From positions 1 through 32,386 of the IMG/VR virus record IMGVR_UViG_3300013129_001282: a stretch of DNA of 32,386 nt; one strand, given 5' to 3'. How positions within the stretch are numbered: position 1 is the first letter of the stretch; each line of letters begins with the position of its first letter. A model generated the notes under the pieces. That model saw only the letters and a list, made by a program, of their open reading frames with translations. It made no database searches and was not told the origin of the DNA. Positions 536 through 29,774 of the stretch are shown here, piece by piece. The translations under genes and the position numbers were made by a program. Source of the DNA: a virus.

Positions 536-733
536 ATGGGTGAGAACTGCAGGTCTCACCCTAACAAAGCAATCCGAGACTATGAACGCTTGACAGTTGA
601 TGATGGAACTGTTAGAATGTTACCACCACGATACTCCGAGTTTTCAGTTGACGAAAGAGTATGCTATACTGGAGAATGTAAATCCCTGGATGATGAAATA
701 AGATTAACTGCTCCGTGGCATGTGTCTCAGTAG
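536..733 (+). CDS. Small hypothetical protein ending inside tRNA-Arg
   Basis: A 65-residue protein (GTG 527 is an alternative start, three residues earlier) follows the RlpA-like gene after 9 bases. It is acidic and polar, with three Cys (one in the CYTGEC stretch), and has no signal peptide or membrane segment. I do not recognise a family. Its TAG stop (731-733) is the U8-A9-G10 of the following tRNA-Arg, so the last ten bases are shared with the tRNA gene. Continuity with the upstream gene favours a real gene, but codon evidence is limited by its length. Confidence 0.5.
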   Translation: MGENCRSHPNKAIRDYERLTVDDGTVRMLPPRYSEFSVDERVCYTGECKSLDDEIRLTAPWHVSQ

Positions 734-796
734 CTCAGTGGATAGAGCATCTGCCTTCTAAGCAGTTGGTCGCTGGTTCGACCCCAGCCTGAGACG
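724..796 (+). tRNA. tRNA-Arg (TCT)
   Basis: The acceptor stem GTCTCAG (724-730) pairs with CTGAGAC (789-795), with discriminator G796. There is a normal D-arm, an anticodon loop CTTCTAA giving TCT, and a T-arm GCTGG/CCAGC. It reads AGA, an A+T-rich codon. CCA is not encoded. Confidence 0.95.
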
Positions 797-816
797 CTCC
801 TTTACTAGAAAAAATT

Positions 817-975
817 ATGTCATTACTATCACAACAAGACCGCGAAATGGTTATCGAAGCACTAGAATATTATGTGCAAAGACTAAAAGATAACAACTGT
901 AACCAAGCAGCAGTAAGTTCTTTTCAGACACTTTTGAATTGGGTCGAGCTGGAGCATTATAAAAACGAAAAGTAA
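817..975 (+). CDS. Small hypothetical protein between tRNAs
   Basis: This 52-residue ORF begins at ATG 817 (MSLLSQQDREMV) and ends with TAA five bases before tRNA-Asn. It is predicted to be helical and amphipathic, with no Cys pair or membrane segment. It fills the gap between tRNA-Arg and tRNA-Asn almost exactly, as small cyanophage genes often do in tRNA clusters. No function can be assigned. Confidence 0.6.
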   Translation: MSLLSQQDREMVIEALEYYVQRLKDNNCNQAAVSSFQTLLNWVELEHYKNEK

Positions 976-979
976 TCTT

Positions 980-1051
980 TGGGGTGTAGCTCAGCGGTAG
1001 AGCGAGCGACTGTTAATCGCTTGGTCGTAAGTTCGATCCTTACCACCCCAG
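980..1051 (+). tRNA. tRNA-Asn (GTT)
   Basis: The acceptor TGGGGTG (980-986) pairs with CACCCCA (1044-1050), discriminator G1051. The anticodon stem AGCGA/TCGCT encloses loop CTGTTAA, giving GTT. The T-arm is GTAAG/CTTAC. The gene is complete without CCA. Confidence 0.95.
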
Positions 1052-1053
1052 TT

Positions 1054-1127
1054 GCTATTGTAGCTCAGTTGGATAGAGCAACGGTTTTGTAAACCGTAGG
1101 TCGTCGGTTCAAGTCCGACCAGTAGCT
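1054..1127 (+). tRNA. tRNA-Thr (TGT)
   Basis: The acceptor GCTATTG (1054-1060) pairs with CAGTAGC (1120-1126) with one G-T pair, discriminator T1127. Anticodon stem ACGGT/ACCGT encloses loop TTTGTAA, giving TGT (reads ACA). T-arm GTCGG/CCGAC. It lies two bases after tRNA-Asn, probably on the same transcript. Confidence 0.95.
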
Positions 1128-1135
1128 TATAAATA
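1128..1135 (+). promoter_or_regulatory. T4-like late promoter motif TATAAATA
   Basis: A perfect TATAAATA starts directly after the last base of tRNA-Thr, 18 bases before the ATG of the A+T-rich cassette. NATAAATA is the late-promoter motif described in T4-like cyanophages. In such A+T-rich DNA one chance match is possible, but the placement before a gene start supports it. Confidence 0.55.
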
Positions 1136-1153
1136 AAAAAAATAATATTGGTT

Positions 1154-1396
1154 ATGCTAAAAATTAGTAAAGAACATTTGAAAAAAAGTCAAGAGACTTA
1201 TGGCAGTCATTTAATTTGGGCAACCTATGCTGGGATCAAGATGATCTTGGTGGGATGTTCTAGTATTGTACATGGAATTGTTCCTGCATTTTTTCAAGGA
1301 ACTGCAGCTAAGACTGTTATTGATTTTTATCATAAACGTTTGGTAAATCATCCAAATAATGAATATCAAGACTATATCGATCAGTATAAAAAATGA
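1154..1396 (+). CDS. DUF6356-like small membrane protein
   Basis: An 80-residue protein from ATG 1154 (TTG 1148 would add two residues). The pattern HLKKSQETYGSH near the N terminus, followed by a hydrophobic helix at about residues 23-48 and then FQGTAAKTVIDFYHKRL, resembles the DUF6356 family, whose function is unknown. It is likely an inner-membrane protein with one or two helical passes. Its TGA overlaps the ATG of the adenylating enzyme (ATGA), so the two are probably translated together. It is the first gene of the A+T-rich cassette. Confidence 0.7.
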   Translation: MLKISKEHLKKSQETYGSHLIWATYAGIKMILVGCSSIVHGIVPAFFQGTAAKTVIDFYHKRLVNHPNNEYQDYIDQYKK

Positions 1397-2883
1397 TTAT
1401 TACTAGAGAAATTATTAACAAAAATATAAAATTTTATGATGTGAAGGTGCCAGGTCCAGATGAGGATGACCTCGATCCAGGGTGCTTTGAGTATACATAT
1501 AGCGATTTATCTATTGCAATAGATTTATATAAAAATTTACTAATAGATAATGGAGTATCTCCACAGGAAACAGTAACAATTGGAGAACTTCCCTCTATAT
1601 GGCAGATTGCTGCATTGTTTGCAGCATTTGAACTTGGATTAAAAGTTAGCATCAGTGATTATTATAAATCACCAATTGTATCAAGAAGCAAACACAAAAA
1701 ATTTGAATTGGATTCGAAAACAAAAGCATTGCTTCCAATAGATTATGCATTAAGAGATAAAAAACAGAATAGTAATAAATTATTATATAATACAAGGATC
1801 TCAAGTAAAGAAATAGTCCACAAATTTTCTTACCAAGATTTAAATTCTAATTCTATAGAACTAAAAAAATATCCTCATAATACAGAAGATGATTTTATAG
1901 CAGTAAAAAGTGCTACTAGTGGGACAACAGGAGCTCCAAAATGTGTGGAACATTCTCATCGTTTTTTGTATGAATTAGCACATAGGAATAGTAAATTATT
2001 TTCGGGAGATTATTGTTGTTATAGAAACCATAACTTTAATCATGGCAGCAGTTTATTTTGTTATATTGTACCGGCTTTAATTTCTAAAGATATATCCAAT
2101 TTTTATTCATTTGAAGGTAGAGATCACGTAGGATTTTTGCAGTTTATATCTTCATTAAAAAGAAAAACTCATCTAATGTTTCCATATATTACTCAAATTG
2201 AACACTTTTTAAATTACTTAAATGATGTTGATAAAAAATGTCCAAATATTATTGCTCATGTATTGACATTTATCCCTAAACCTTGGAAAAATGAGTTTTA
2301 TTCGAATAAAATAATTGGTGATGTTATTAGTAATTTTGGTAGTAATGAAACAACGGGACCAGTTTTCTTAAATAAACTTAGTGATGATCAATTTCTAGAG
2401 TGTCAATATAAATTAATTGATAATTTTTTTAAAGTCAAAATAGTTAGAACTGGATTGCAAGTTGATATGCCAGTATATAATAAATCTATTATAATGAATG
2501 ATAGATTTGAATCTAATGGAGCGAATTCTTTTGTTCATACAGGAAGATCTAATTTTATTAGAATTAATGATACTGAAGTGCAAATAGAAAAATACCAAAT
2601 TTTAATTGAAGAAACAATAAATGGAACTTTAGTATATGATCAAATTAGATCTAAAATTTATTTGGCAATATGGGATGTAAGTTATACTACTAAAGATACT
2701 AACATAACTTCACTTATCAATGATGCAAATGCTAAATTAAAAGATTTATCTTTATATAAACATTATATAAGTAAATATACAATTTTAAATTATGAAGATT
2801 ATCTTGGTGCAATAAAACTTGATATGGAAAAATTGCGAGAATATTTTAGAAATCCTGATGAAGATTATCAAACAATCGATTAG
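1393..2883 (+). CDS. AMP-forming ligase-like (ANL superfamily) protein
   Basis: This 496-residue protein carries the phosphate-binding loop TSGTTGAPK (175-183), the signature of ANL adenylating enzymes (acyl-CoA synthetases, NRPS adenylation domains). FGSNETTGP (315-323) fits motif A5, whose Glu helps bind ATP. HTGRSNFIRINDTEVQIEKY (382-401) resembles compressed motifs A7-A8, and Lys475 in LGAIKLDMEKLREY could be the C-terminal catalytic Lys. It probably activates a carboxylic acid as an acyl-adenylate; the substrate is unknown and no carrier protein is adjacent. The gene is very A+T-rich compared with the glycan operon. Neighbouring 2OG oxygenase and radical SAM genes suggest a tailoring pathway. 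Divergence means altered or lost activity is possible. Confidence 0.72.
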   Translation: MIITREIINKNIKFYDVKVPGPDEDDLDPGCFEYTYSDLSIAIDLYKNLLIDNGVSPQETVTIGELPSIWQIAALFAAFELGLKVSISDYYKSPIVSRSKHKKFELDSKTKALLPIDYALRDKKQNSNKLLYNTRISSKEIVHKFSYQDLNSNSIELKKYPHNTEDDFIAVKSATSGTTGAPKCVEHSHRFLYELAHRNSKLFSGDYCCYRNHNFNHGSSLFCYIVPALISKDISNFYSFEGRDHVGFLQFISSLKRKTHLMFPYITQIEHFLNYLNDVDKKCPNIIAHVLTFIPKPWKNEFYSNKIIGDVISNFGSNETTGPVFLNKLSDDQFLECQYKLIDNFFKVKIVRTGLQVDMPVYNKSIIMNDRFESNGANSFVHTGRSNFIRINDTEVQIEKYQILIEETINGTLVYDQIRSKIYLAIWDVSYTTKDTNITSLINDANAKLKDLSLYKHYISKYTILNYEDYLGAIKLDMEKLREYFRNPDEDYQTID

Positions 2884-2884
2884 A

Positions 2885-3352
2885 ATGGAATTGGTTCAGT
2901 TTTGTAATCAAGAAATAGATGCATTGATATCTGAGCGTGTTTGGTCGTCTAATCAGATTACCTGGGATGAAAGTTTATTTGCCGACATTCCAGGTATTTG
3001 TTTATCTGCAGATGTATCTTTTCTCTTAGAAAGAGAATTGAAGAAAGAATTATTACGTCATCTACCTAAGGTAGATAAGATTATTATTAATTATAATCTA
3101 TGGTTGAAAAATTCTGGTATTCGTTGGCATACAGATGCCAATTATGCTTTTGGTGCTACATTATATTTAAATGATTGGGATAAGAAGTGGGGCGGTTTGT
3201 TTTTATGGGAAGATGTAGATGAACAAATCCATGCGTTGTGCCCACAATCAAATGTGCTTGTAATAAATACGGAAGCAGAAAGTCATTCTGTAACACAAGT
3301 TTCTTCTATAGCGTCTTATCCAAGAAGGTCTTTACAAATCTGGGGAATATAA
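2885..3352 (+). CDS. 2OG-Fe(II) oxygenase-like protein
   Basis: ATG 2885, one base after the ligase stop, gives 155 residues. The iron triad is visible as H82 and D84 in RWHTDANY and H134 in ESHSVTQV, with R147 or R148 in PRRSLQIW as the 2-oxoglutarate-binding Arg. ATLYLNDWDKKWGG (91-104) matches the core of prolyl-4-hydroxylase-type enzymes, common in cyanophages. It likely hydroxylates a peptide or small molecule with O2 and 2-oxoglutarate. A longer reading from 2819 would overlap the ligase by 65 bases and is less likely. It sits between the ligase and the radical SAM gene, so shared substrate chemistry is inferred. Confidence 0.82.
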   Translation: MELVQFCNQEIDALISERVWSSNQITWDESLFADIPGICLSADVSFLLERELKKELLRHLPKVDKIIINYNLWLKNSGIRWHTDANYAFGATLYLNDWDKKWGGLFLWEDVDEQIHALCPQSNVLVINTEAESHSVTQVSSIASYPRRSLQIWGI

Positions 3353-3355
3353 TCT

Positions 3356-4471
3356 ATGAAAAATATTTGTAAATCTCCTTTTACTGGATTTGTTATTGGC
3401 ACACAAGGAGATATTTTTTATTGCTGTATGGGAATTCGTGATATCTATAAGATATCAAATATTAATGAAATTGATGATTTAGGAGAATTTTTTAAAACAT
3501 CTCCAGATCTTAAGAGTGTACGAAGAAAATTTATGGATGGTGAGTTTGAAAAAATTTCCCCGTGTTTTGAATGTCTTGAAAAGGAAAAAAAATTCATAAA
3601 AACATTTAAAGATAGTATCGATAAAAAATTTCCAAATAATATTGATGATATAAAACTTAGATACTTGGAATTAACCACTAGTAATATTTGTAATGCTGTC
3701 TGTTCAACATGTAATAGTTACTTAAGTTCTTCTTGGAAAAAATATGATAGTTTGTTTGGTAGAATAGAATTTCCTCTGCAAAAATTATCAAATTCTTCTA
3801 TTAATAAAATAAAAAATATTTTGTCAGGACTAGAATACATGATAATAAAAGGTGGGGAACCTTTTGCGGATGATAATAATATTTCAATTTTAGAAAATCT
3901 TTTTGATATTAATAAAGAATGCGAAGTTGCTATAGTAACAAACATGTCTTTATTGAGAGAAAATCATATTCGTGTCTTAAATAAAAATCCTAGTAAAGTA
4001 AATTTAACAGCTAGTATAGATGGAACTAAAGAAATTTATTCATGGATTAGAAGCACTGATTTTGATGTAGTAGTTGCAAACATGAAAAAAGTATATGATC
4101 AGACAGGAATAAGATTTGATATTAGCATTACGTTATCAATTTATAACTTCTTTAATATTATTGATATTATTGAATATTTTTCAAGTAAATTATATGTAAA
4201 ATCAATAGAATTTTCTAATATTTTGCACAAACCTGTAGCGTGTTCTATACAATCATTGCCTGAGAATATATTTAATATTCAAAAGAAAAAAATATATGAT
4301 AATAAAATATTTTGCGATAACGTAACTTCAGAATCATTTGAAAAATTAAATAATTTTTTGCATATAAAAGAAAATAAAGAGTTAGTTTTTGATCATATAC
4401 ATAAAATAAATCAAATCAGAGGATTTGATATTTGTGATTATGTTCCAGAACTTAAAGACTGGAGGGGTTGA
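3356..4471 (+). CDS. Radical SAM protein with Cys-rich N terminus
   Basis: The 371-residue protein has the radical SAM cluster motif C112-x3-C116-x2-C119 (CNAVCSTC), followed by KGGEPF (165-170), the SAM-binding GGE-type motif. The barrel continues with TNMSLL and ASIDGTKEIYSWIR. The N terminus carries C5, C23, C24, C70 and C73, suggesting a second iron-sulfur site like twitch or SPASM modules, though placed before rather than after the core. Related enzymes modify peptides, tRNA or sugars; the substrate here is unknown. The start ATG 3356 follows the oxygenase stop by three bases. The TGA stop lies inside the -35 box of the next promoter. Its composition is strongly A+T-rich. Confidence 0.85.
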   Translation: MKNICKSPFTGFVIGTQGDIFYCCMGIRDIYKISNINEIDDLGEFFKTSPDLKSVRRKFMDGEFEKISPCFECLEKEKKFIKTFKDSIDKKFPNNIDDIKLRYLELTTSNICNAVCSTCNSYLSSSWKKYDSLFGRIEFPLQKLSNSSINKIKNILSGLEYMIIKGGEPFADDNNISILENLFDINKECEVAIVTNMSLLRENHIRVLNKNPSKVNLTASIDGTKEIYSWIRSTDFDVVVANMKKVYDQTGIRFDISITLSIYNFFNIIDIIEYFSSKLYVKSIEFSNILHKPVACSIQSLPENIFNIQKKKIYDNKIFCDNVTSESFEKLNNFLHIKENKELVFDHIHKINQIRGFDICDYVPELKDWRG

Positions 4472-4496
4472 CAGAAAAATAAAATTTTGGTATAGT
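4468..4496 (+). promoter_or_regulatory. Sigma70-type promoter for second tRNA cluster
   Basis: TTGACA (4468-4473) and TATAGT (4491-4496) are 17 bases apart. The stop codon of the radical SAM gene (4469-4471) is inside the -35 box. It should drive tRNA-Leu, -Gly and -Val. Confidence 0.82.
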
Positions 4497-4518
4497 ATAC
4501 AGGTGTGAAGGAAGTGCA

Positions 4519-4551
4519 ATGGGCATGAGAGATCTGTAAGTCCCATTTTTT
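4519..4551 (+). terminator. Weak hairpin plus T-run before tRNA-Leu
   Basis: ATGGG (4519-4523) pairs with CCCAT (4542-4546), followed by six T ending at 4551, one base before tRNA-Leu. The stem is short and the loop 18 bases, so it may be an attenuator or only a processing spacer. Confidence 0.25.
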
Positions 4552-4633
4552 GTCGGTGTGGCGGAATTGGTAGACGCGCTGGGTTTAGGTTCCAGTGGGG
4601 TATCCCGTGAAGGTTCAAGTCCTTTCACCGACA
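4552..4633 (+). tRNA. tRNA-Leu (TAG)
   Basis: A class II tRNA with long variable arm. The acceptor GTCGGTG (4552-4558) pairs with CACCGAC (4626-4632), discriminator A4633. The anticodon stem CTGGG/TCCAG (one G-T pair) encloses TTTAGGT, giving TAG (reads CTA). Confidence 0.94.
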
Positions 4634-4719
4634 TTGGTACTCGCTAGGCAGATATCCTAGAAGGAGACCAAGTTAGATTGTTTGCGCTGGAAAGATAAAC
4701 CAGAATGCCGCAATCTTTC
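4634..4719 (+). other. Two tandem stem-loops between tRNA-Leu and tRNA-Gly
   Basis: An 86-base spacer folds into two hairpins. The first (4634-4671) pairs TTGGT-a-CTC with GAGACCAA and then CTAGG with CCTAG around a 7-base loop. The second (4675-4716) pairs AGATTG with CAATCT and CTGG with CCAG. Neither has a T-arm or anticodon arm, so it is not an intact tRNA. It may be a processing signal, a small RNA, or a decayed tRNA. Confidence 0.5.
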
Positions 4720-4794
4720 GCGGAATTAGTTCAGTGGTAGAACGTCAGCCTTCCAAGCTGAATGTCATCGGTTCAAGTCCGATATTCCGCTCCA
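4720..4794 (+). tRNA. tRNA-Gly (TCC)
   Basis: The acceptor GCGGAAT (4720-4726) pairs with ATTCCGC (4784-4790). The anticodon stem CAGC/GCTG encloses CTTCCAA, giving TCC (reads GGA). The discriminator T4791 is followed by an encoded CCA, and tRNA-Val begins immediately after. Confidence 0.95.
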
Positions 4795-4866
4795 GGGTGA
4801 TTAGCTCAGCGGTAGAGCATCTCGTTTACACCGAGGCTGTCGGCAGTTCGATCCTGTCATCACCCA
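4795..4866 (+). tRNA. tRNA-Val (TAC)
   Basis: Acceptor GGGTGAT (4795-4801) pairs with ATCACCC (4859-4865), discriminator A4866. The anticodon loop TTTACAC gives TAC (reads GTA). There is no gap after the encoded CCA of tRNA-Gly, so processing from a shared transcript is required. Confidence 0.94.
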
Positions 4867-4874
4867 TATAAATA
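4867..4874 (+). promoter_or_regulatory. T4-like late promoter motif TATAAATA
   Basis: A perfect TATAAATA begins on the base after tRNA-Val and lies 33 bases before ATG 4908. The same motif in the same position follows tRNA-Thr at 1128, which strengthens both calls. Confidence 0.6.
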
Positions 4875-4907
4875 AGTAAAAAGTAGTAGATAAGAAAGTG
4901 TAATAAG

Positions 4908-5414
4908 ATGAAAACTTTTTCTCAGTTCATGGTAGAATGTCAGCACATCCAAGAGACCTCGCTCAATCGTGTCAAGTCTAAATCGGATAAGGGTGGCATG
5001 GCAATTATGTCCGCTGAACGTGGAGACAAATCTAAGTCTCAAAATAAAGCACGATCTAGGCAATTGGCGAAGGACATTCGCGGCGCTGGTCTTCCTGGTC
5101 CGACAAAAGTCAAAGGAAGATATACAGAAAATCCTGGAACAAAGGATGAAAAAAAAGTTTCTGAAAAATCTTATGTAGTTTCTTCTGGTAAGAAAGGAAA
5201 GAGAAAATTCAAAAAAGCAATTACTAAACTTGGCGCTAAGTACAATCAAGATTCTGTATTAGTTCAAAAGAAAAAGTCTGCAAGTCTTACTGGAACTTCC
5301 AAAACATCTTGGCCAGGTAAAGGTAAAAATGTTAAAGTTGGAAAAATGAACCCAGGTAAAACTGGTGAATTTGATACTAAAGTGAAAAACAAAACATTTA
5401 CTTATGAAAACTAA
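4908..5414 (+). CDS. Basic phage protein of unknown function
   Basis: A 168-residue, strongly Lys-rich protein starting MKTFSQFMVE, an N-terminal style seen in many T4-like cyanophage proteins. Motifs that look conserved are KGGMAIMSAERGDKS (28-42), GRYTENPG, SYVVSSGKKGKRKFKKAI, YNQDSVL, GTSKTSWPGKGKNVKVGK and DTKVKNKTFTYEN at the C terminus. No catalytic motif is recognised and no membrane segment is present. Its charge suggests nucleic-acid or virion binding, which is only inference. A late motif lies upstream, so expression late in infection is likely. Confidence 0.75.
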   Translation: MKTFSQFMVECQHIQETSLNRVKSKSDKGGMAIMSAERGDKSKSQNKARSRQLAKDIRGAGLPGPTKVKGRYTENPGTKDEKKVSEKSYVVSSGKKGKRKFKKAITKLGAKYNQDSVLVQKKKSASLTGTSKTSWPGKGKNVKVGKMNPGKTGEFDTKVKNKTFTYEN

Positions 5415-5589
5415 ATTTCCATTTCCACATGTAGTGGACTGTAACGAAAAAACTGTATGGGTGCTTTGTGATAGTGCTATCACTGCAATGGGCGTTGGTT
5501 CTATTGTAAAAAAATTCTATCCTGGGTATACTCCTAAAATTGCCAGTAAGGAATATTTTCAAACCCTAAATAACCAAAAGCAACTTTGA
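5404..5589 (+). CDS. Small hypothetical protein
   Basis: A 61-residue protein whose ATG lies inside the last codons of the preceding gene (11-base overlap). It reads MKTKFPFPHVVDCNEKTVWV, then an alternating hydrophobic segment around SAITAMGVGSIVKKFYPGY. There is no known domain. The tight overlap and the following gene at 5591 support it as a real member of this small-gene run. Confidence 0.6.
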   Translation: MKTKFPFPHVVDCNEKTVWVLCDSAITAMGVGSIVKKFYPGYTPKIASKEYFQTLNNQKQL

Positions 5590-5590
5590 A

Positions 5591-5788
5591 ATGAAACTAT
5601 CCAAACTCAAGAAAATCATTCAAAAACCCTTGAGGTTTCATCATCAGGATATACATGAAGAGTTAGAAGACATTAAAAATGAACTCAAACACATTAATGA
5701 TACGTTGCAAGTGTTGCAACAAGGAGTTGAAGAGCTCCTCAAAGCGAATAGTTTGCGGATGCCCCAATCGGGCAACGATTTATGGTGA
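5591..5788 (+). CDS. Small coiled-coil protein
   Basis: A 65-residue protein starting MKLSKLKKIIQKPLRFHHQD. Residues 23-52 (EELEDIKNEL through EELLKA) have a heptad pattern of Leu and Ile suggestive of a coiled coil. It begins one base after the previous stop. Its last 92 bases overlap the next gene in another frame, so either the overlap is real or one call is wrong. No function is assigned. Confidence 0.5.
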   Translation: MKLSKLKKIIQKPLRFHHQDIHEELEDIKNELKHINDTLQVLQQGVEELLKANSLRMPQSGNDLW

Positions 5789-5939
5789 TAAGATTTCAGC
5801 AGTAGATCTTTCACAAATCGTTGTCTTAGAAGGGTTTACAAAAAAGCAATCTTCTAGTATACTAAGTAAAGATGACCTCGCTTTTCAGGAAGCAAGGCGT
5901 CAACGAAAAGTTAGAAAACTTGAATTTGAAATTCGCTAA
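5697..5939 (+). CDS. Cys-rich small protein, possible zinc ribbon
   Basis: An 80-residue protein starting MIRCKCCNKELKSSSKRIVC. Cysteines 4, 6, 7, 20 and 22 form CxCC and CGC clusters, typical of a small zinc-binding knuckle. The rest includes ISAVDLSQIVVLEGF and a basic C terminus. I believe similar proteins occur in other cyanomyoviruses. ATG 5697 is preferred over 5679 because it starts just before the Cys cluster. It overlaps the coiled-coil ORF by 92 bases and shares an A with the next ATG (TAATG). Confidence 0.65.
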   Translation: MIRCKCCNKELKSSSKRIVCGCPNRATIYGDKISAVDLSQIVVLEGFTKKQSSSILSKDDLAFQEARRQRKVRKLEFEIR

Positions 5940-6196
5940 TGTGGAGACTTTGGTGTAAATCGTTAGGTGAGAAAGCTTCTGATGAAAATCATGAAGCAGA
6001 TCGCATAGCAATTATACGGACAGTAATCTTCACTACATACTTTATAACAAATGCATTTATTGTTGCAGGCGTTATAAGACATTGGAATGATTGTGAATGG
6101 AAGCGTGGCCGAGTGGTTTATGGCAGTAGTCTTGAAAACTACCGTGTTAGTAGCACCGTTGGTTCGAATCCAACCGCTTCCGCCTTGGGGAATTAG
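5939..6196 (+). CDS. Small membrane protein reading through tRNA-Ser
   Basis: The first 53 or so residues look real: MWRLWCKSLGEKASDENHEA, then a hydrophobic helix (about 30-46, TVIFTTYFITNAFIVAGVI) and RHWND. This resembles a short membrane protein seen in other cyanophages. No stop follows there; the frame continues through the whole of tRNA-Ser (6099-6182) and stops at TAG 6194-6196, the U8-A9-G10 of tRNA-Ala. The C-terminal 33 residues are therefore a translation of tRNA sequence. tRNA insertion or loss of the original stop is the simplest reading. Confidence 0.6.
   Translation: MWRLWCKSLGEKASDENHEADRIAIIRTVIFTTYFITNAFIVAGVIRHWNDCEWKRGRVVYGSSLENYRVSSTVGSNPTASALGN
6099..6182 (+). tRNA. 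tRNA-Ser (TGA)
   Basis: A class II tRNA with long variable arm. GGAAGCG (6099-6105) pairs with CGCTTCC (6175-6181), discriminator G6182. Anticodon stem GTAGT/ACTAC encloses CTTGAAA, giving TGA (reads TCA). It lies inside the reading frame of the gene at 5939. Confidence 0.95.
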
Positions 6197-6262
6197 CTCA
6201 GTTGGTAGAGCGCCTGCTTTGCAAGCAGGATGTCAGCGGTTCGAGTCCGCTATTCTCCACCA
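6187..6262 (+). tRNA. tRNA-Ala (TGC)
   Basis: GGGGAAT (6187-6193) pairs with ATTCTCC (6252-6258) with one G-T pair, discriminator A6259 and encoded CCA (6260-6262). The anticodon loop TTTGCAA gives TGC (reads GCA). Confidence 0.95.
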
Positions 6263-6334
6263 CGGAGTGTAAGTCAGCGGTAGACGGCTGCTTTTGGGAA
6301 GCAGAAGACGTTGGTTCGATCCCAACCACTCCGA
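6263..6334 (+). tRNA. tRNA-Pro (TGG)
   Basis: CGGAGTG (6263-6269) pairs with CACTCCG (6327-6333), discriminator A6334. Anticodon stem CTGCT/AGCAG encloses TTTGGGA, giving TGG (reads CCA). It directly abuts the encoded CCA of tRNA-Ala. Confidence 0.94.
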
Positions 6335-6336
6335 CT

Positions 6337-6360
6337 AGGCACTTGACATAAGTGCCTTTA
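6337..6360 (+). terminator. Hairpin after tRNA-Pro overlapping the next promoter
   Basis: AGGCACTT (6337-6344) and AAGTGCCT (6350-6357) form a perfect 8-base-pair stem with loop GACAT, followed by a short TTTA run. It may end the tRNA transcript, or act as an operator, since the -35 box TTGACA of the next promoter sits at its tip. Confidence 0.5.
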
Positions 6361-6371
6361 CATCCTATACT
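6343..6371 (+). promoter_or_regulatory. Sigma70-type promoter
   Basis: TTGACA (6343-6348) and TATACT (6366-6371) with a 17-base spacer. The -35 box overlaps the inverted repeat 6337-6357. It drives the small gene at 6396 and is the nearest visible promoter for the glycan operon. Confidence 0.82.
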
Positions 6372-6395: not shown

Positions 6396-6623
6396 ATGTC
6401 TCGCAGTCCATTCTTTTCTAAGTTCAAGACGGACATCAAAAAACTTACTGCTGCCGTCGAGGGTACTTTTTATCTCGATGAAGAATATCCAAAACTATAT
6501 GAAAAGCTTTATAAGTATTACAAGTCCCGCAACGTATATTTTTACGATGATGTGGAAAAAGATTATAATGTAATTCTTGACAATCTTGAATACGATCTTA
6601 TGGATGCAGGTGTTCTAGTATAA
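6396..6623 (+). CDS. Small hypothetical protein, possibly early
   Basis: A 75-residue acidic protein rich in Tyr and Asp: MSRSPFFSKFKTDIKKL at the start, EKLYKYYKSRNVYFYDDVEK in the middle, and a C terminus DLMDAGVLV. It is predicted to be helical, without Cys or a membrane segment. The start ATG lies 25 bases after a strong promoter -10 box. No family is recognised. Its frame stays open after the TAA stop all the way to the next gene. Confidence 0.7.
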   Translation: MSRSPFFSKFKTDIKKLTAAVEGTFYLDEEYPKLYEKLYKYYKSRNVYFYDDVEKDYNVILDNLEYDLMDAGVLV

Positions 6624-6848
6624 GTCTCGGGAAGACTAAAAAATCGCCCTGGTCGGGATGGTCAATATGACCCCTGGGTTTCTTGCTTCCTAAAAGCAAG
6701 TGGTGGAGTCAATTATGACCCCTATTGTCCCCGCAAGATAAGGGACAATAAAAATTCTTGCTGGTGCGGATGGGGATTTTTCTCCGCCTGGTTTCCAATT
6801 TCCAGTCAAAGAATTGGTGGCGAGCCTGAAAATTTATCTTATAAGAAA
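6624..6848 (+). other. Hairpin-rich intergenic stretch, also open in frame
   Basis: These 225 bases contain seven short inverted repeats: GTCT/AGAC (6624-6636), GGTCA/TGACC (6660-6672), CTTGCTT/AAGCAAG (6682-6700), GTCA/TGAC (6708-6719), ATTGTCCC/GGGACAAT (6724-6749), GCGGA/TCCGC, and CCAATT/AATTGG. Two copies of a TCAAT(T)ATGACCCC element occur. All 75 codons in the frame of both flanking genes are stop-free but contain no ATG, GTG or TTG. The translation is rich in Trp, Cys and Gly, with related YDPW and YDPY patches. It could be a structured RNA, a remnant gene, or a readthrough extension. Confidence 0.5.
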
Positions 6849-7217
6849 ATGAGTTGTACATGTGTACGCAGGGAAAGACCTTGGGGTTGGTACGAGACTA
6901 TTGATCAAGGACAATCATACAAGGTCAAAAGGATTTATGTAAATCCAAACGCACGGTTTTCCCTTCAATATCACAATGATCGAATTGAACATTGGAACAT
7001 TGTGGAAGGGTTTGGTTTAGTTCAACTAAACGAATATACCGAATGGGTTCACCCTGGAAAGCATTTTCATATTCCAATCAACTCCCGTCACCGCATGACT
7101 GCTGGTGACGAAGGAGTTCTTTTTATTGAAGTTCAATATGGCAACTGCCATGAGGATGACATTGTGCGATTGGAAGATGATTATGGTAGAATAGGTAGTG
7201 ATTATTACACGGACTGA
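6849..7217 (+). CDS. Cupin, mannose-6-phosphate isomerase type II-like
   Basis: This 122-residue single-domain cupin matches the C-terminal domain of bifunctional mannose-6-phosphate isomerase/GDP-mannose pyrophosphorylase: RPWGWYETI (10-18), SYKVKRIYVNPNARFSLQYH (23-42), EHWNIVEGFGLV (47-58), and HPGKHFHIP. Likely metal ligands are the His and Glu residues of QYHNDRIEHW. The expected reaction is fructose-6-phosphate to mannose-6-phosphate, which would supply GDP-mannose for the epimerase at 10265. It is the first gene of the glycan operon. The stop and next ATG share one base (TGATG). No strong Shine-Dalgarno is seen. Confidence 0.82.
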   Translation: MSCTCVRRERPWGWYETIDQGQSYKVKRIYVNPNARFSLQYHNDRIEHWNIVEGFGLVQLNEYTEWVHPGKHFHIPINSRHRMTAGDEGVLFIEVQYGNCHEDDIVRLEDDYGRIGSDYYTD

Positions 7218-24939: not shown

Positions 24940-26019
24940 ATGACTGCAACCATCGCTCAACAGCGTGGAAGCAATACTTGGGAACAATTCTGCGAGTGGG
25001 TAACATCAACCAATAATCGTTTGTATGTTGGTTGGTTCGGAACACTGATGATTCCTACCCTTCTCGCTGCGACTATCTGTTTCATTGTTGCTTTCATTGC
25101 TGCACCTCCTGTCGATATCGACGGAATTCGTGAACCCGTTGCTGGTTCACTAATGTACGGCAACAACATCATCTCTGGTGCTGTTGTTCCTTCTAGCAAC
25201 GCTATTGGTCTTCACTTCTATCCTATTTGGGAAGCTGCTTCGCTTGACGAATGGCTTTACAATGGTGGTCCCTTTCAACTGATTATTTTTCACTTCTTGA
25301 TCGGCATCTATTCCTACATGGGGCGTGAGTGGGAACTTTCTTACCGTCTAGGTATGCGTCCATGGATTATGGTTGCTTACAGTGCTCCTGTTGCTGCTGC
25401 ATCTGCAGTGTTCTTGGTCTATCCTTTCGGTCAAGGATCGTTCTCTGATGCGATGCCTTTGGGTATCAGTGGCACCTTCAACTACATGTTTGTTTTCCAA
25501 GCAGAGCATAACATTCTTATGCATCCTTTCCACATGCTTGGAGTTGCTGGTGTCTTCGGTGGTTCTCTGTTCAGTGCGATGCATGGTTCTCTTGTGACTT
25601 CTTCGCTGGTTCGTGAAACTACTGAAACTGAAAGTCAGAACTATGGTTATAAGTTCGGTCAAGAAGAAGAGACTTATAACATCGTTGCTGCACATGGATA
25701 TTTCGGTCGTCTGATCTTCCAGTATGCTTCGTTCAACAACTCACGCTCACTTCACTTCTTCTTGGCTGCTTGGCCAGTTGTAGGTATCTGGTTTGCTGCT
25801 CTTGGTGTTAGCACCATGGCATTCAACTTGAACGGGTTCAACTTTAATCAGTCTTTGATCGATAGTCAGAACCGTGTTATTCCTACTTGGGCAGATATTC
25901 TGAACCGTGCTGGACTTGGTATGGAAGTTATGCATGAGCGTAATGCCCACAACTTTCCTCTTGATCTTGCTACTGCTTCAACCACTGAAGTTGCTCTGAC
26001 TGCTCCAAGTATCGGATGA
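24940..26019 (+). CDS. psbA: Photosystem II reaction-centre protein D1
   Basis: Full-length D1, 359 residues with no intron. Key residues are in register: Tyr161 (YZ), Asp170, Glu189, His190, His198 (P680), His215 (iron/QB), His332, Glu333, His337, Asp342 and Ala344, after which 15 residues would be removed by CtpA. Residue 130 is Glu (MGREWELS), the high-light D1:2 type rather than Gln. Cyanophage psbA keeps host photosynthesis running during infection by replacing photodamaged D1. It has its own promoter, leader hairpin and terminator, so it is an independent, strongly expressed unit. The G+C content looks higher than that of the A+T-rich cassettes. Confidence 0.99.
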
Positions 26020-26835: not shown

Positions 26836-28035
26836 TTACCAAGATTTATAAACGAGTTTATTTGGGGTTGGGTGTAAAATTGCACTCGACCCCTTTTTAT
26901 TTGGAAAGTAATCTTTCTGTTCTCCTTCCCTTGCAATATCGCTAGTGATACCATGTAATCCTCCTTCCCAGAAATATCTGTGTCTGAAATTAATTACATG
27001 CGGAGATACTCCATGTCTTTCAAACGCTTCAAAAACTTCTTTGTTGTAATTGTTACAAATAATATTGTGTTCGTCAATGACTAACATGTTTACATCAAAA
27101 ACATCTTCCTCTACATAAGTTACCCAATCTTTCAACCAGGTTTCGACATAATCAATCAGATCGTTATTATACTCTTCTCCTGGAATCCACCATTTATCCT
27201 TATTTTTTCCTTTTAACTCTAAGAATGGTTTTACCTTTTTCCAACTTTGTCCTGGAAGGCTAATAACTTCCCATTCTGGAAAGGTTTCGGTATAGTTTTG
27301 CACATTGGCTAAAGAAATAATTAGACCTGGTTTTACAGGGCAAAATGATCCATCTGAATGTCCAATAATGTCTAAAACATGTGTTCTATAATTTGGAAAT
27401 AGTCTTTTTAGTTTTTCAATAAATCTATCTGGATTATTCTTGACAATATTGGTTATTGCAGAAAAATATAAATCTTTACCAACTCTTGTCATCCAGGAAG
27501 TGTTTATATACTCATCATAAACTATAGGAACGTTATTTGTGGTTAAAACTTCTTCTATAGTTGAAAATGCATAGTGATTTTTATTATTTTGAGTTTCTGC
27601 TGCGATTAAATTTTCTACAAATTTTGAATCTAAAAGCAGATTTGTAAATTCATATTTTTTAGCTAGTTTCTCACTACTATAATATTTTTCTACCAGTTGT
27701 ATAATATCAATATTACCATATTTTTTATCTGGCATATAGAATGTACCACCAACCATTGCGGTATGATTTCTTGGACACATAGGTGGTGGCATTGGAATGC
27801 CATCATTTTTGATGTGGTCTTCAAAATTTTCTGATATATCAGTTCTAACCACCGTTACACCAAATTCTTCTAACTTAGATATAAGTTTCTGATAATCTTC
27901 TTCTGTTTCAATTGCAATGCGTTCCATAACATTGCGAACTTTTGGATTTTTTATACGAGAGTAAAACTCTGGAGGATATGAACGACCTACCGCACAAACT
28001 TTCAAAGGATCCCAATGCTGATGTACGCTAAACAT
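26836..28035 (-). CDS. Amidinotransferase-like protein lacking catalytic Cys
   Basis: A 399-residue protein, the only convincing minus-strand gene here. WDPLKVCAVGRSYP at the N terminus, MCPRNHTAMVGGTFYMPD (86-103), IIGHSDGSFCPVKPG (His226, Asp228) and FWEGGLHGITSDIAREGE (355-372) follow the glycine/inosamine amidinotransferase pattern. In that family the last motif is GG-x-HC-x-T, with Cys forming the amidino-enzyme intermediate; here residue 362 is Gly (GGT codon). A Cys-free relative may be inactive or do other chemistry. The gene is A+T-rich and convergent with the lipase, suggesting separate acquisition. Its promoter is not clear. Confidence 0.8.
   Translation of the reverse strand: MFSVHQHWDPLKVCAVGRSYPPEFYSRIKNPKVRNVMERIAIETEEDYQKLISKLEEFGVTVVRTDISENFEDHIKNDGIPMPPPMCPRNHTAMVGGTFYMPDKKYGNIDIIQLVEKYYSSEKLAKKYEFTNLLLDSKFVENLIAAETQNNKNHYAFSTIEEVLTTNNVPIVYDEYINTSWMTRVGKDLYFSAITNIVKNNPDRFIEKLKRLFPNYRTHVLDIIGHSDGSFCPVKPGLIISLANVQNYTETFPEWEVISLPGQSWKKVKPFLELKGKNKDKWWIPGEEYNNDLIDYVETWLKDWVTYVEEDVFDVNMLVIDEHNIICNNYNKEVFEAFERHGVSPHVINFRHRYFWEGGLHGITSDIAREGEQKDYFPNKKGSSAILHPTPNKLVYKSW
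26864..26898 (+). terminator. Terminator for the lipase gene, inside the opposing gene
   Basis: GGGGTTGGGTG (26864-26874) pairs with CACTCGACCCC (26883-26893) over 11 pairs (two G-T), then five T (26894-26898). It lies 33 bases after the lipase stop but inside the 3' end of the minus-strand amidinotransferase-like gene. Confidence 0.8.
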
Positions 28036-29457: not shown

Positions 29458-29486
29458 TTGACTAGATAGAGTATAGACGCTATAAT
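29458..29486 (+). promoter_or_regulatory. Promoter of the riboswitch-peptide unit
   Basis: TTGACT (29458-29463), 17 bases, TATAAT (29481-29486). The start should fall at about 29492, so the transcript begins directly with the riboswitch. Confidence 0.88.
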
Positions 29487-29493
29487 GTGTCTA

Positions 29494-29580
29494 CGTTCAT
29501 CCTTCGGGACGCAAGTAAGTCGCGGAACGGATCGTTCATTCGCTATTCGCAAATAGCGAACGCAAACGACTGAAGGAACG
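29494..29580 (+). ncRNA. Downstream-peptide / glutamine riboswitch
   Basis: P1 pairs CGTTC (29494-29498) with GAACG of GGAACG (29575-29580). P2 is a small hairpin with a TTCG loop (29500-29509). The conserved GCAAGTA (29511-29517) and GAAGGAACG (29572-29580) flank P3, AGTCG (29518-29522) with CGACT (29567-29571). These match the glnA/downstream-peptide aptamers, shown to bind glutamine. P3 is extended by two hairpins, GAACG/CGTTC (29525-29537) and TTCGCTATT/AATAGCGAA (29539-29560). It controls the peptide at 29613. The family assignment is from recognition of the motif, not from a covariance search. Confidence 0.85.
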
Positions 29581-29612
29581 GGCCTAAAAATCCATTCATT
29601 CAGGAGAAACAA

Positions 29613-29749: not shown

Positions 29750-29774
29750 GGGGGAATTGACTTCCCCCTTTTTT
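29750..29774 (+). terminator. Terminator after the downstream peptide
   Basis: GGGGGAA (29750-29756) pairs with TTCCCCC (29762-29768), loop of five, then six T (29769-29774). It lies six bases after the stop and closes the riboswitch-peptide unit. Confidence 0.9.

Follow-up and report, generated by a model that had tools for sequence, protein, structure and literature searches.

What is a stretch between two phage genes that is crowded with inverted repeats and yet stays open in the reading frame of both neighbors? The question is raised by positions 6624-6848 of a 32,386-nucleotide stretch of viral DNA (IMG/VR record IMGVR_UViG_3300013129_001282), which we call the window. The original prediction offered a structured regulatory RNA at the head of a glycan operon, a decayed gene rich in Cys and Trp, or a readthrough extension of the upstream gene, and it knew of no described element like it. 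We argue that the stretch is an RNA of a family that has already been described.

The Rfam family RF01761 (wcaG RNA) matches the plus strand of the window twice, at 6725-6831 with 77.5 bits and at 6621-6715 with 49.6 bits. Both matches are above the gathering score of 42. These scores and the covariation presented below decide the identity. It is close to certain that the stretch is a cyanophage wcaG RNA, in the form of a tandem array of four hairpin or pseudoknot units. The array is joined to the 3' end of a small gene, and a glycan operon comes after it. An undescribed element is ruled out by the Rfam matches. The passages on wcaG RNA in its 2010 description present it as a riboswitch candidate with a conserved structure, known from cyanophages and marine samples and located close to exopolysaccharide and high-light genes (Weinberg et al. 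2010, PMC2864571). Three later cyanophage papers list wcaG by Rfam annotation, and mechanism is absent from the passages that name it (PMC9964418, PMC9602691, PMC10665884). The window agrees with the family in sequence, three-hairpin core, cyanophage host and nearby glycan and high-light genes. Its relatives are in Synechococcus and Prochlorococcus phages, psbA (PF00124) lies further along the window, and a cupin gene and NDP-sugar genes come after the element. In Rfam the model is a single stretch of 98 bases with three nested hairpins, whereas here that stretch is part of a longer array with one pseudoknot unit, usually in front of a terminator. In the window the 77.5-bit match has an H-type pseudoknot as its first stem, but the three-hairpin point belongs to the Rfam description and not to the score that defines membership. 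The idea of a structured regulatory RNA heading a glycan operon thus stands as far as structure and place are concerned, given the two matches, the compensatory changes and the glycan genes downstream.

A DNA similarity search with E values up to 1 returned 120 phage records. Synechococcus, Prochlorococcus or 'Cyanophage' records account for 115 of these, and the other five are Mycobacterium phages that probably match by chance. Of the records searched, 21 of 23 and 20 of 20 scored above the cut-off of RF01761, but these were reached via similarity or pattern, so the shares are no prevalence. The 12 named phage genomes among them have one wcaG locus apiece. A strict pattern scan of bacterial and archaeal genomes gave a single stretch, in Kangiella, which has no Rfam match at the gathering threshold. 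We take it as a chance match and reject a host-borne element, with the proviso that the strict pattern could miss divergent host copies.

The array occupies 6623-6828 on the plus strand, as defined by the RF01761 matches and the unit count, and consists of four units, three linker hairpins and a closing TGGCGAGCCTG. A scan predicts a sigma-70-type promoter upstream on the same strand (TTGACA at 6343-6348, 17 bases, TATACT at 6366-6371; 11 of 12 matches), which is overlapped by a hairpin at 6337-6344/6350-6357 (inverted repeat I13). This promoter, at 6343-6371, likely drives a transcript that contains the array, which begins about 245 bases past the predicted start site. Between the two is a small gene of 75 amino acids (6396-6623, plus strand; phrog_552, function unassigned), identified from the open reading frame list, PHROGs and its homologues upstream of other arrays. 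Its stop codon overlaps the first unit. The element had been located correctly but made to start after the stop codon, and it in fact begins inside it, at 6623. The first gene 3' of the array, 17 bases away, is the cupin (6849-7217, plus strand; PF01050, mannose-6-phosphate isomerase C-terminal type), which heads a block of sugar-nucleotide genes.

Unit 1 (6623-6653) is an AGTC-type hairpin, 6623-6627/6633-6637, that ends in CCC-TGGT and is also found in relatives. It is followed by linker hairpin 1 (6654-6675; 6660-6664/6668-6672). Unit 2 (6678-6704) is a GTTT hairpin, 6682-6688/6694-6700, and then TGGT, and its relatives have hairpin-type stems; linker hairpin 2 (6705-6722) pairs 6708-6711 with 6716-6719. 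Unit 3 (6723-6765) is an H-type pseudoknot by its pairing and its relatives, with S1 at 6723-6731/6742-6750, S2 at 6733-6738/6756-6761, and then TGGT. The Rfam core, backed by the match and by covariation, holds linker hairpin 3 (6766-6789; 6768-6775/6782-6788, with an internal loop) and unit 4 (6791-6828; stem 6795-6800/6812-6817, a conserved loop and the closing TGGCGAGCCTG). The order in the window is therefore AGTC, hairpin, pseudoknot, hairpin, and successive TGG lie 51, 61 and 53 bases apart. Sequence and inverted-repeat list bear out the dense clustering of inverted repeats that had been described, and the TATGACCCCT repeat is present in that list with copies at 6666 and 6714. The packing of seven inverted repeats holds up too, but by hand we count eight plus-strand helices in 6623-6817, and two of them are not separate hairpins but a single pseudoknot. 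The predicted fold of 6615-6860 has -72.1 kcal/mol (z = -2.13; 5 of 200 shuffles equally good), which exceeds chance by a modest margin.

Other parts of the window deserve mention. Nine tRNA genes lie in three groups within 724-6335 and 24940-26019, the last of those in 724-6335 ending just before the promoter hairpin of gene 6396. A glutamine riboswitch (RF01739, 38 bits against a gathering score of 35) is at 29492-29584, with TTGACT-17-TATAAT just upstream of it at 29458-29486. Past this match and a short reading frame is a terminator, 29750-29768, with TTGAC in its loop.

Side by side, the relatives obey one rule: unit-TGGT-linker hairpin-unit-TGGT-linker-...-unit-TGGC-GAGCCTG (or GTGCATG). 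Units span 50-60 bases, and each is a hairpin or H-type pseudoknot closed by TGGT or TGGC, with a second hairpin joining. The 98-base Rfam model cuts across this organisation. There are three kinds of unit: a hairpin of the form GTTT, stem, TGG; an AGTC hairpin with a GG loop and then CTGG; and an H-type pseudoknot ending CTGG. A script with a crude chaining rule counted one unit in 5, two in 18, three in 63, four in 26 and five in 1 of the 113 matches listed, which include near-identical copies (L001, the window itself, and L006) and one locus, L110, twice. The next-to-last unit is a clean hairpin, a class that demanded four outer pairs, in 80 of 103 distinct arrays among the matches listed. 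Sorted by hand, the remaining 23 are 9 pseudoknots, 7 one-mismatch hairpins, 5 AGTC-type and 2 truncated. The pattern behind the loci fixed GTTTC, a TTCCAGTYAAARR loop and GTGGYG and gave at least 120 scan rows. Columns fixed by it, and the TGGT[GA][CT]GG used to cut alignment A2, are uninformative on conservation.

Among the matches listed, 91 of 125 AGTC-type units lie no more than 450 bases upstream of an array end; so do several of the remaining 34, with an end signature that the script missed. Single AGTC units also stand away from the array, for instance directly before a small phrog_2318 gene. We looked by eye for a consistent pseudoknot in the AGTC-type units and rejected it, since a GGG/CCC pairing fits some sequences and fails others. 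In one relative (L005:3268-3489) and its own relatives a small phrog_2318 gene lies between wcaG units. The largest upstream protein cluster (47 of 97 among the matches listed) resembles phrog_2318 by sequence, the PHROGs scan having covered the L005 copy only. This gene may be a regular companion of the array.

Compensatory base changes had been proposed as the check for an RNA. They are present in the array stems of the relatives, which supports the RNA model. In the last linker and last unit of 58 distinct sequences 98.0% of cells are paired, compared to 43-64% with the partners slid, and 96 cells are changed on both sides against a shuffled mean of 24. The pattern left only the four middle pairs in the last stem and the greater part of the linker hairpin free to vary there. 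All four of these pattern-free pairs show compensatory changes. An earlier pairing script misplaced the last stem in arrays ending GTGGTGG, giving T-T and G-G rows, but the 58-sequence count stands. For the pseudoknot, 94.5% of cells are paired in 14 distinct sequences (32-48% when slid), a value that is partly high by construction because the sequences were chosen for having both helices. The weight of the pseudoknot case comes instead from helices that differ in sequence and from a low control rate. The S2 helices do differ between pseudoknot arrays, and only 48 of 2695 control CTGG sites pass the pseudoknot test. Among the matches listed, 14 of 18 detected pseudoknots stand before TGGTG[CT]GG[AG].

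The case for a coding sequence, whether a decayed gene or an extension of gene 6396, is the 75-codon open frame common to both neighbors, along with a weak match to Sf-CH11 in tblastn (E 2e-4), which covers the same element. The frame of genes 6396 and 6849 is indeed open over 6624-6848, and indeed it has no start codon (no in-frame ATG, GTG or TTG). Such openness is nothing unusual: of 4595 stretches of 225 bases sampled from the window, 1000 are stop-free in the sampled frame, real coding frames included, as are 64 of 5000 base shuffles of the stretch itself. The tblastn match is expected from DNA similarity. The relatives decide the matter. Stops and frameshifts in homologues were the proposed check, and both are found. 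Of 18 distinct intervals that follow homologues of gene 6396, 13 contain in-frame stops, which speaks against the decayed gene; one of these 13 (L026) is without the element. The extension fails on the relatives with stops and frame-breaking lengths. In most relatives the script did not recognise the cupin start, and there up to 300 bases past the stop were examined. Of the five stop-free intervals, two (L002, L006) are near-identical to the window and one (L024) is without the element; the other two (L019, L020) are open but 158 bases long, so the frame shared with the cupin is broken. The conserved feature of the array is its base pairing, and we reject coding as next to impossible.

Where the array sits in other phages is informative. 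An intrinsic terminator lies within 120 bases after it in 84 of the 113 matches listed, and 81 begin 10-24 bases past the last unit. With a limit of 60 bases there is one in 81 of the 100 scan-derived matches listed. The corresponding control counts are 52 of 2260 for random windows and 18 of 573 for other gene ends followed by a gap of 60 bases or more. Matches with less than 100 bases of downstream flank were left out of these counts, and all 32 without a terminator within 60 bases were kept in. In at least six of the 19 scan matches counted without one (L073, L099, L121, L129, L133, L149), a terminator is visible by eye that escaped the criterion or lay past the 60-base limit. When downstream flanks are clustered at 80% identity, 34 of 54 clusters among the matches listed have a majority terminator. 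The 13 matches from the window clade and the named phages all lack a strict terminator within 60 bases, and several marine isolates have by eye a hairpin without a full T-run after the array. In the window clade the array is retained, and no terminator stands between it and the cupin gene. Of the plus-strand terminator-like sites with a T-run seen downstream in the window, the strongest is at 26864-26893; weaker ones lie inside genes, and the long gene block has no strong internal plus-strand terminator before 26864. Without a terminator in its clade, the window alone cannot test a mechanism. Its array is also promoter-proximal in a long gene block, so in this copy a leader and a readthrough signal would look alike.

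A TTGNNN box in the terminator hairpin is followed by TANNNT at promoter spacing in 61 of the 113 matches listed. In the whole genome of DSL-LC03 only 2 of 23 strong terminators are such terminator-promoter composites, and one of the two is at the array; in 180 kb of S-SRM01 it is 4 of 32, again with one at the array. The hairpin that overlaps the -35 box at 6337-6371 of the window is the same kind of hairpin-with-promoter composite. On the other side, a sigma-70 promoter with at least 11 of 12 matches is predicted within 1 kb upstream in 64 of 99 matches listed, against 300 of 1208 control windows, at a median distance of 822 bases. The end of an upstream gene or tRNA falls 1-28 bases before the first TGG in 91 of the 113 matches listed, so the stop codon is commonly inside the first unit as it is in the window. 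The family itself has been known since 2010, but the array form and the consistent terminator-side placement go beyond the 98-base Rfam description. We did not find this placement described in the passages of the literature consulted.

The setting is gene-agnostic, with 18 upstream and 29 downstream protein clusters among the matches listed, although some small clusters may be chance frames. Pfam families were found in 9 of 10 downstream representatives scanned, mostly of sugar-nucleotide or glycosyl-transfer type (epimerase, cytidylyltransferase-like, glycosyl transferase family 11, nucleotidyl transferase, hexapeptide, carbamoyltransferase, nucleotide-diphospho-sugar transferase). Marine isolates often have the array flanked by the talC region on one side and a tRNA or hli genes on the other, in some cases close to psbA. 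Some arrays directly follow a tRNA 3' end, not a stop codon (L075, L076, L097, L126, L156, L168, L170, L176). In phage S-H35 an unannotated tRNA-Leu-like sequence appears by eye to overlap the last array unit (L197:2400-2790). Phage S-CREM1 has an annotated manA RNA between two tRNA genes about 370 bases past its wcaG RNA (L192:3018-3232), which makes two riboswitch-candidate RNAs in one tRNA cluster.

What might the array do? Our preferred reading, at a probability of roughly 0.38, is that it is a transcribed signal acting in cis on the elongation complex, a readthrough or antitermination element of the put or nut kind. The transcribed array would act on its own RNA polymerase, or recruit a factor to it. 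It would control whether polymerase gets past the terminator or pause sites downstream and on into the next and mostly glycan operon, and the number of units might set the strength. The data show the family, the array form, the covariation and the placement; transcription from the upstream promoters, the effect on termination and any partner are what we infer here. In the window clade, with no terminator in between, elongation along the long operon would be what the array acts on, or the array could be a retained relic. In support are the statistics on terminators, next promoters, upstream promoters and gene ends, and the gene-agnostic setting. Transcripts from the next promoter are without the array, so it is not simply the leader of the next operon. 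It stands at the upstream gene end before the terminator, so it can act on polymerases that come from upstream. One can imagine a classical attenuator in which array and terminator pair alternatively. This is argued against by the longest-run measure of complementarity, which is the same for an array's own terminator arms as for those of other arrays. A purely local switch fits poorly with the retention of the array in the window clade, where no terminator follows it. Against the readthrough model are the 13 window-clade and named-phage matches and the drop to 34 clusters reported above, and nothing in the long gene block of the window demands antitermination.

The order of parts in lambda is gene end (cro), RNA site (nutR), terminator (tR1) and next genes. 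The wcaG layout is more like cro-nutR-tR1 than like a 5' leader, a likeness in order of parts alone. Lambda nut requires the N protein and has boxA and boxB. HK022 putR is located about 270 bases past the start site and, needing no protein, suppresses terminators 10 kb away, in the passages of PMC9378689 that cover it. The layouts are alike in having an early promoter, a short distance, transcribed hairpins, terminators beyond and a phage element that works on host polymerase (PMC9378689). However, the put of lambdoid phages is an element of about 70 bases with two stem-loops and wcaG arrays have up to five units, so they are likened by layout alone. Predicted promoters and terminators flank arrays elsewhere, but the window has no such terminator. 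A stronger form of the readthrough model would make the arrays a processive antitermination system that T4-like cyanophages encode as RNA. Hairpin and pseudoknot units, arranged in tandem and interchangeable, would be made by early transcription and would remodel host RNA polymerase, which would run from the early gene through the terminator into host-surface glycan genes. Unit number would set readthrough, and ribosomes reaching the stop codon within the first unit would gate it. We consider this form unlikely.

The 2010 proposal was a riboswitch, drawn from the conserved structure and the exopolysaccharide genes, and tandem glnA aptamers are known from the same paper (PMC2864571). A unit or pair of units would bind a metabolite such as a sugar nucleotide, and the set would control termination or translation of the glycan genes. 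The 17-base gap to the cupin would suit translation control. This must be set against the promoters 3' of the array in 61 of 113 matches listed, the tRNA genes directly after the array in marine isolates, and the absence of the motif from hosts by the strict pattern. As for an expression platform, the longest-run measure reveals no switch pairing with the terminator. A tandem riboswitch is doubtful but deserves to be taken seriously. Somewhat less plausible is that the array shapes the 3' end of the upstream transcript, through stability, RNase resistance or a processed small RNA, or binds a protein. It does overlap or abut the upstream gene end with the terminator next, and pseudoknots and repeats would suit a protein-binding or exonuclease-blocking role. 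But a terminator hairpin already protects a 3' end by itself, and in the window clade the array is internal to a gene block with no terminator behind it.

It is quite improbable that the array is a recombination joint, that is, a conserved border of exchangeable gene blocks kept for shuffling. The model here is the PeSL cassette of T4-type phages, where a terminator stem-loop is combined with an early promoter between genes, a definition we take from titles and a citing passage (PMC4503421). Genes are variable on either side of the array and a terminator-promoter composite adjoins it. Yet compensatory stem changes point to an RNA function and not to DNA identity, and there is one array locus per genome, with so few composites in DSL-LC03 (2 of 23), unlike dense PeSL regions. 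The composite is moreover the sequence 3' of the array in the 61 matches listed and not the array itself; in the window it stands at 6337-6371 instead, upstream of gene 6396. A tandem structured RNA in front, which the wcaG locus has, is not described for PeSLs in that passage (PMC4503421). Integron attC-like sites were dropped because the stems covary on one strand and there is a single locus per genome. A CsrA/Rsm-type decoy was considered by eye, as there are many GGA in the loops; to our knowledge marine Synechococcus has no CsrA. Two other RNAs invite comparison. EAR/epsC RNA heads long exopolysaccharide operons in Bacillus and has antitermination activity, according to the passages in PMC2864571, which makes it, after HK022 put, a second precedent for the readthrough model. 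It shares with the array its position at the head of a glycan or exopolysaccharide operon, but its host is Bacillus and it has no Rfam match in the window. The STAXI motif is described there as a pseudoknot repeated two or three times in tandem (PMC2864571). It is like an array unit in being a tandem pseudoknot but has other associated genes, a comparison made by Rfam scan alone.

If the junction before a terminator is the true setting of wcaG RNA, then the right experiment shifts from a ligand screen to a readthrough assay. A cis-acting RNA that borders glycan and photosynthesis gene blocks would then offer one component, open to direct test, of how T4-like cyanophages pass from early to later transcription with the host polymerase.
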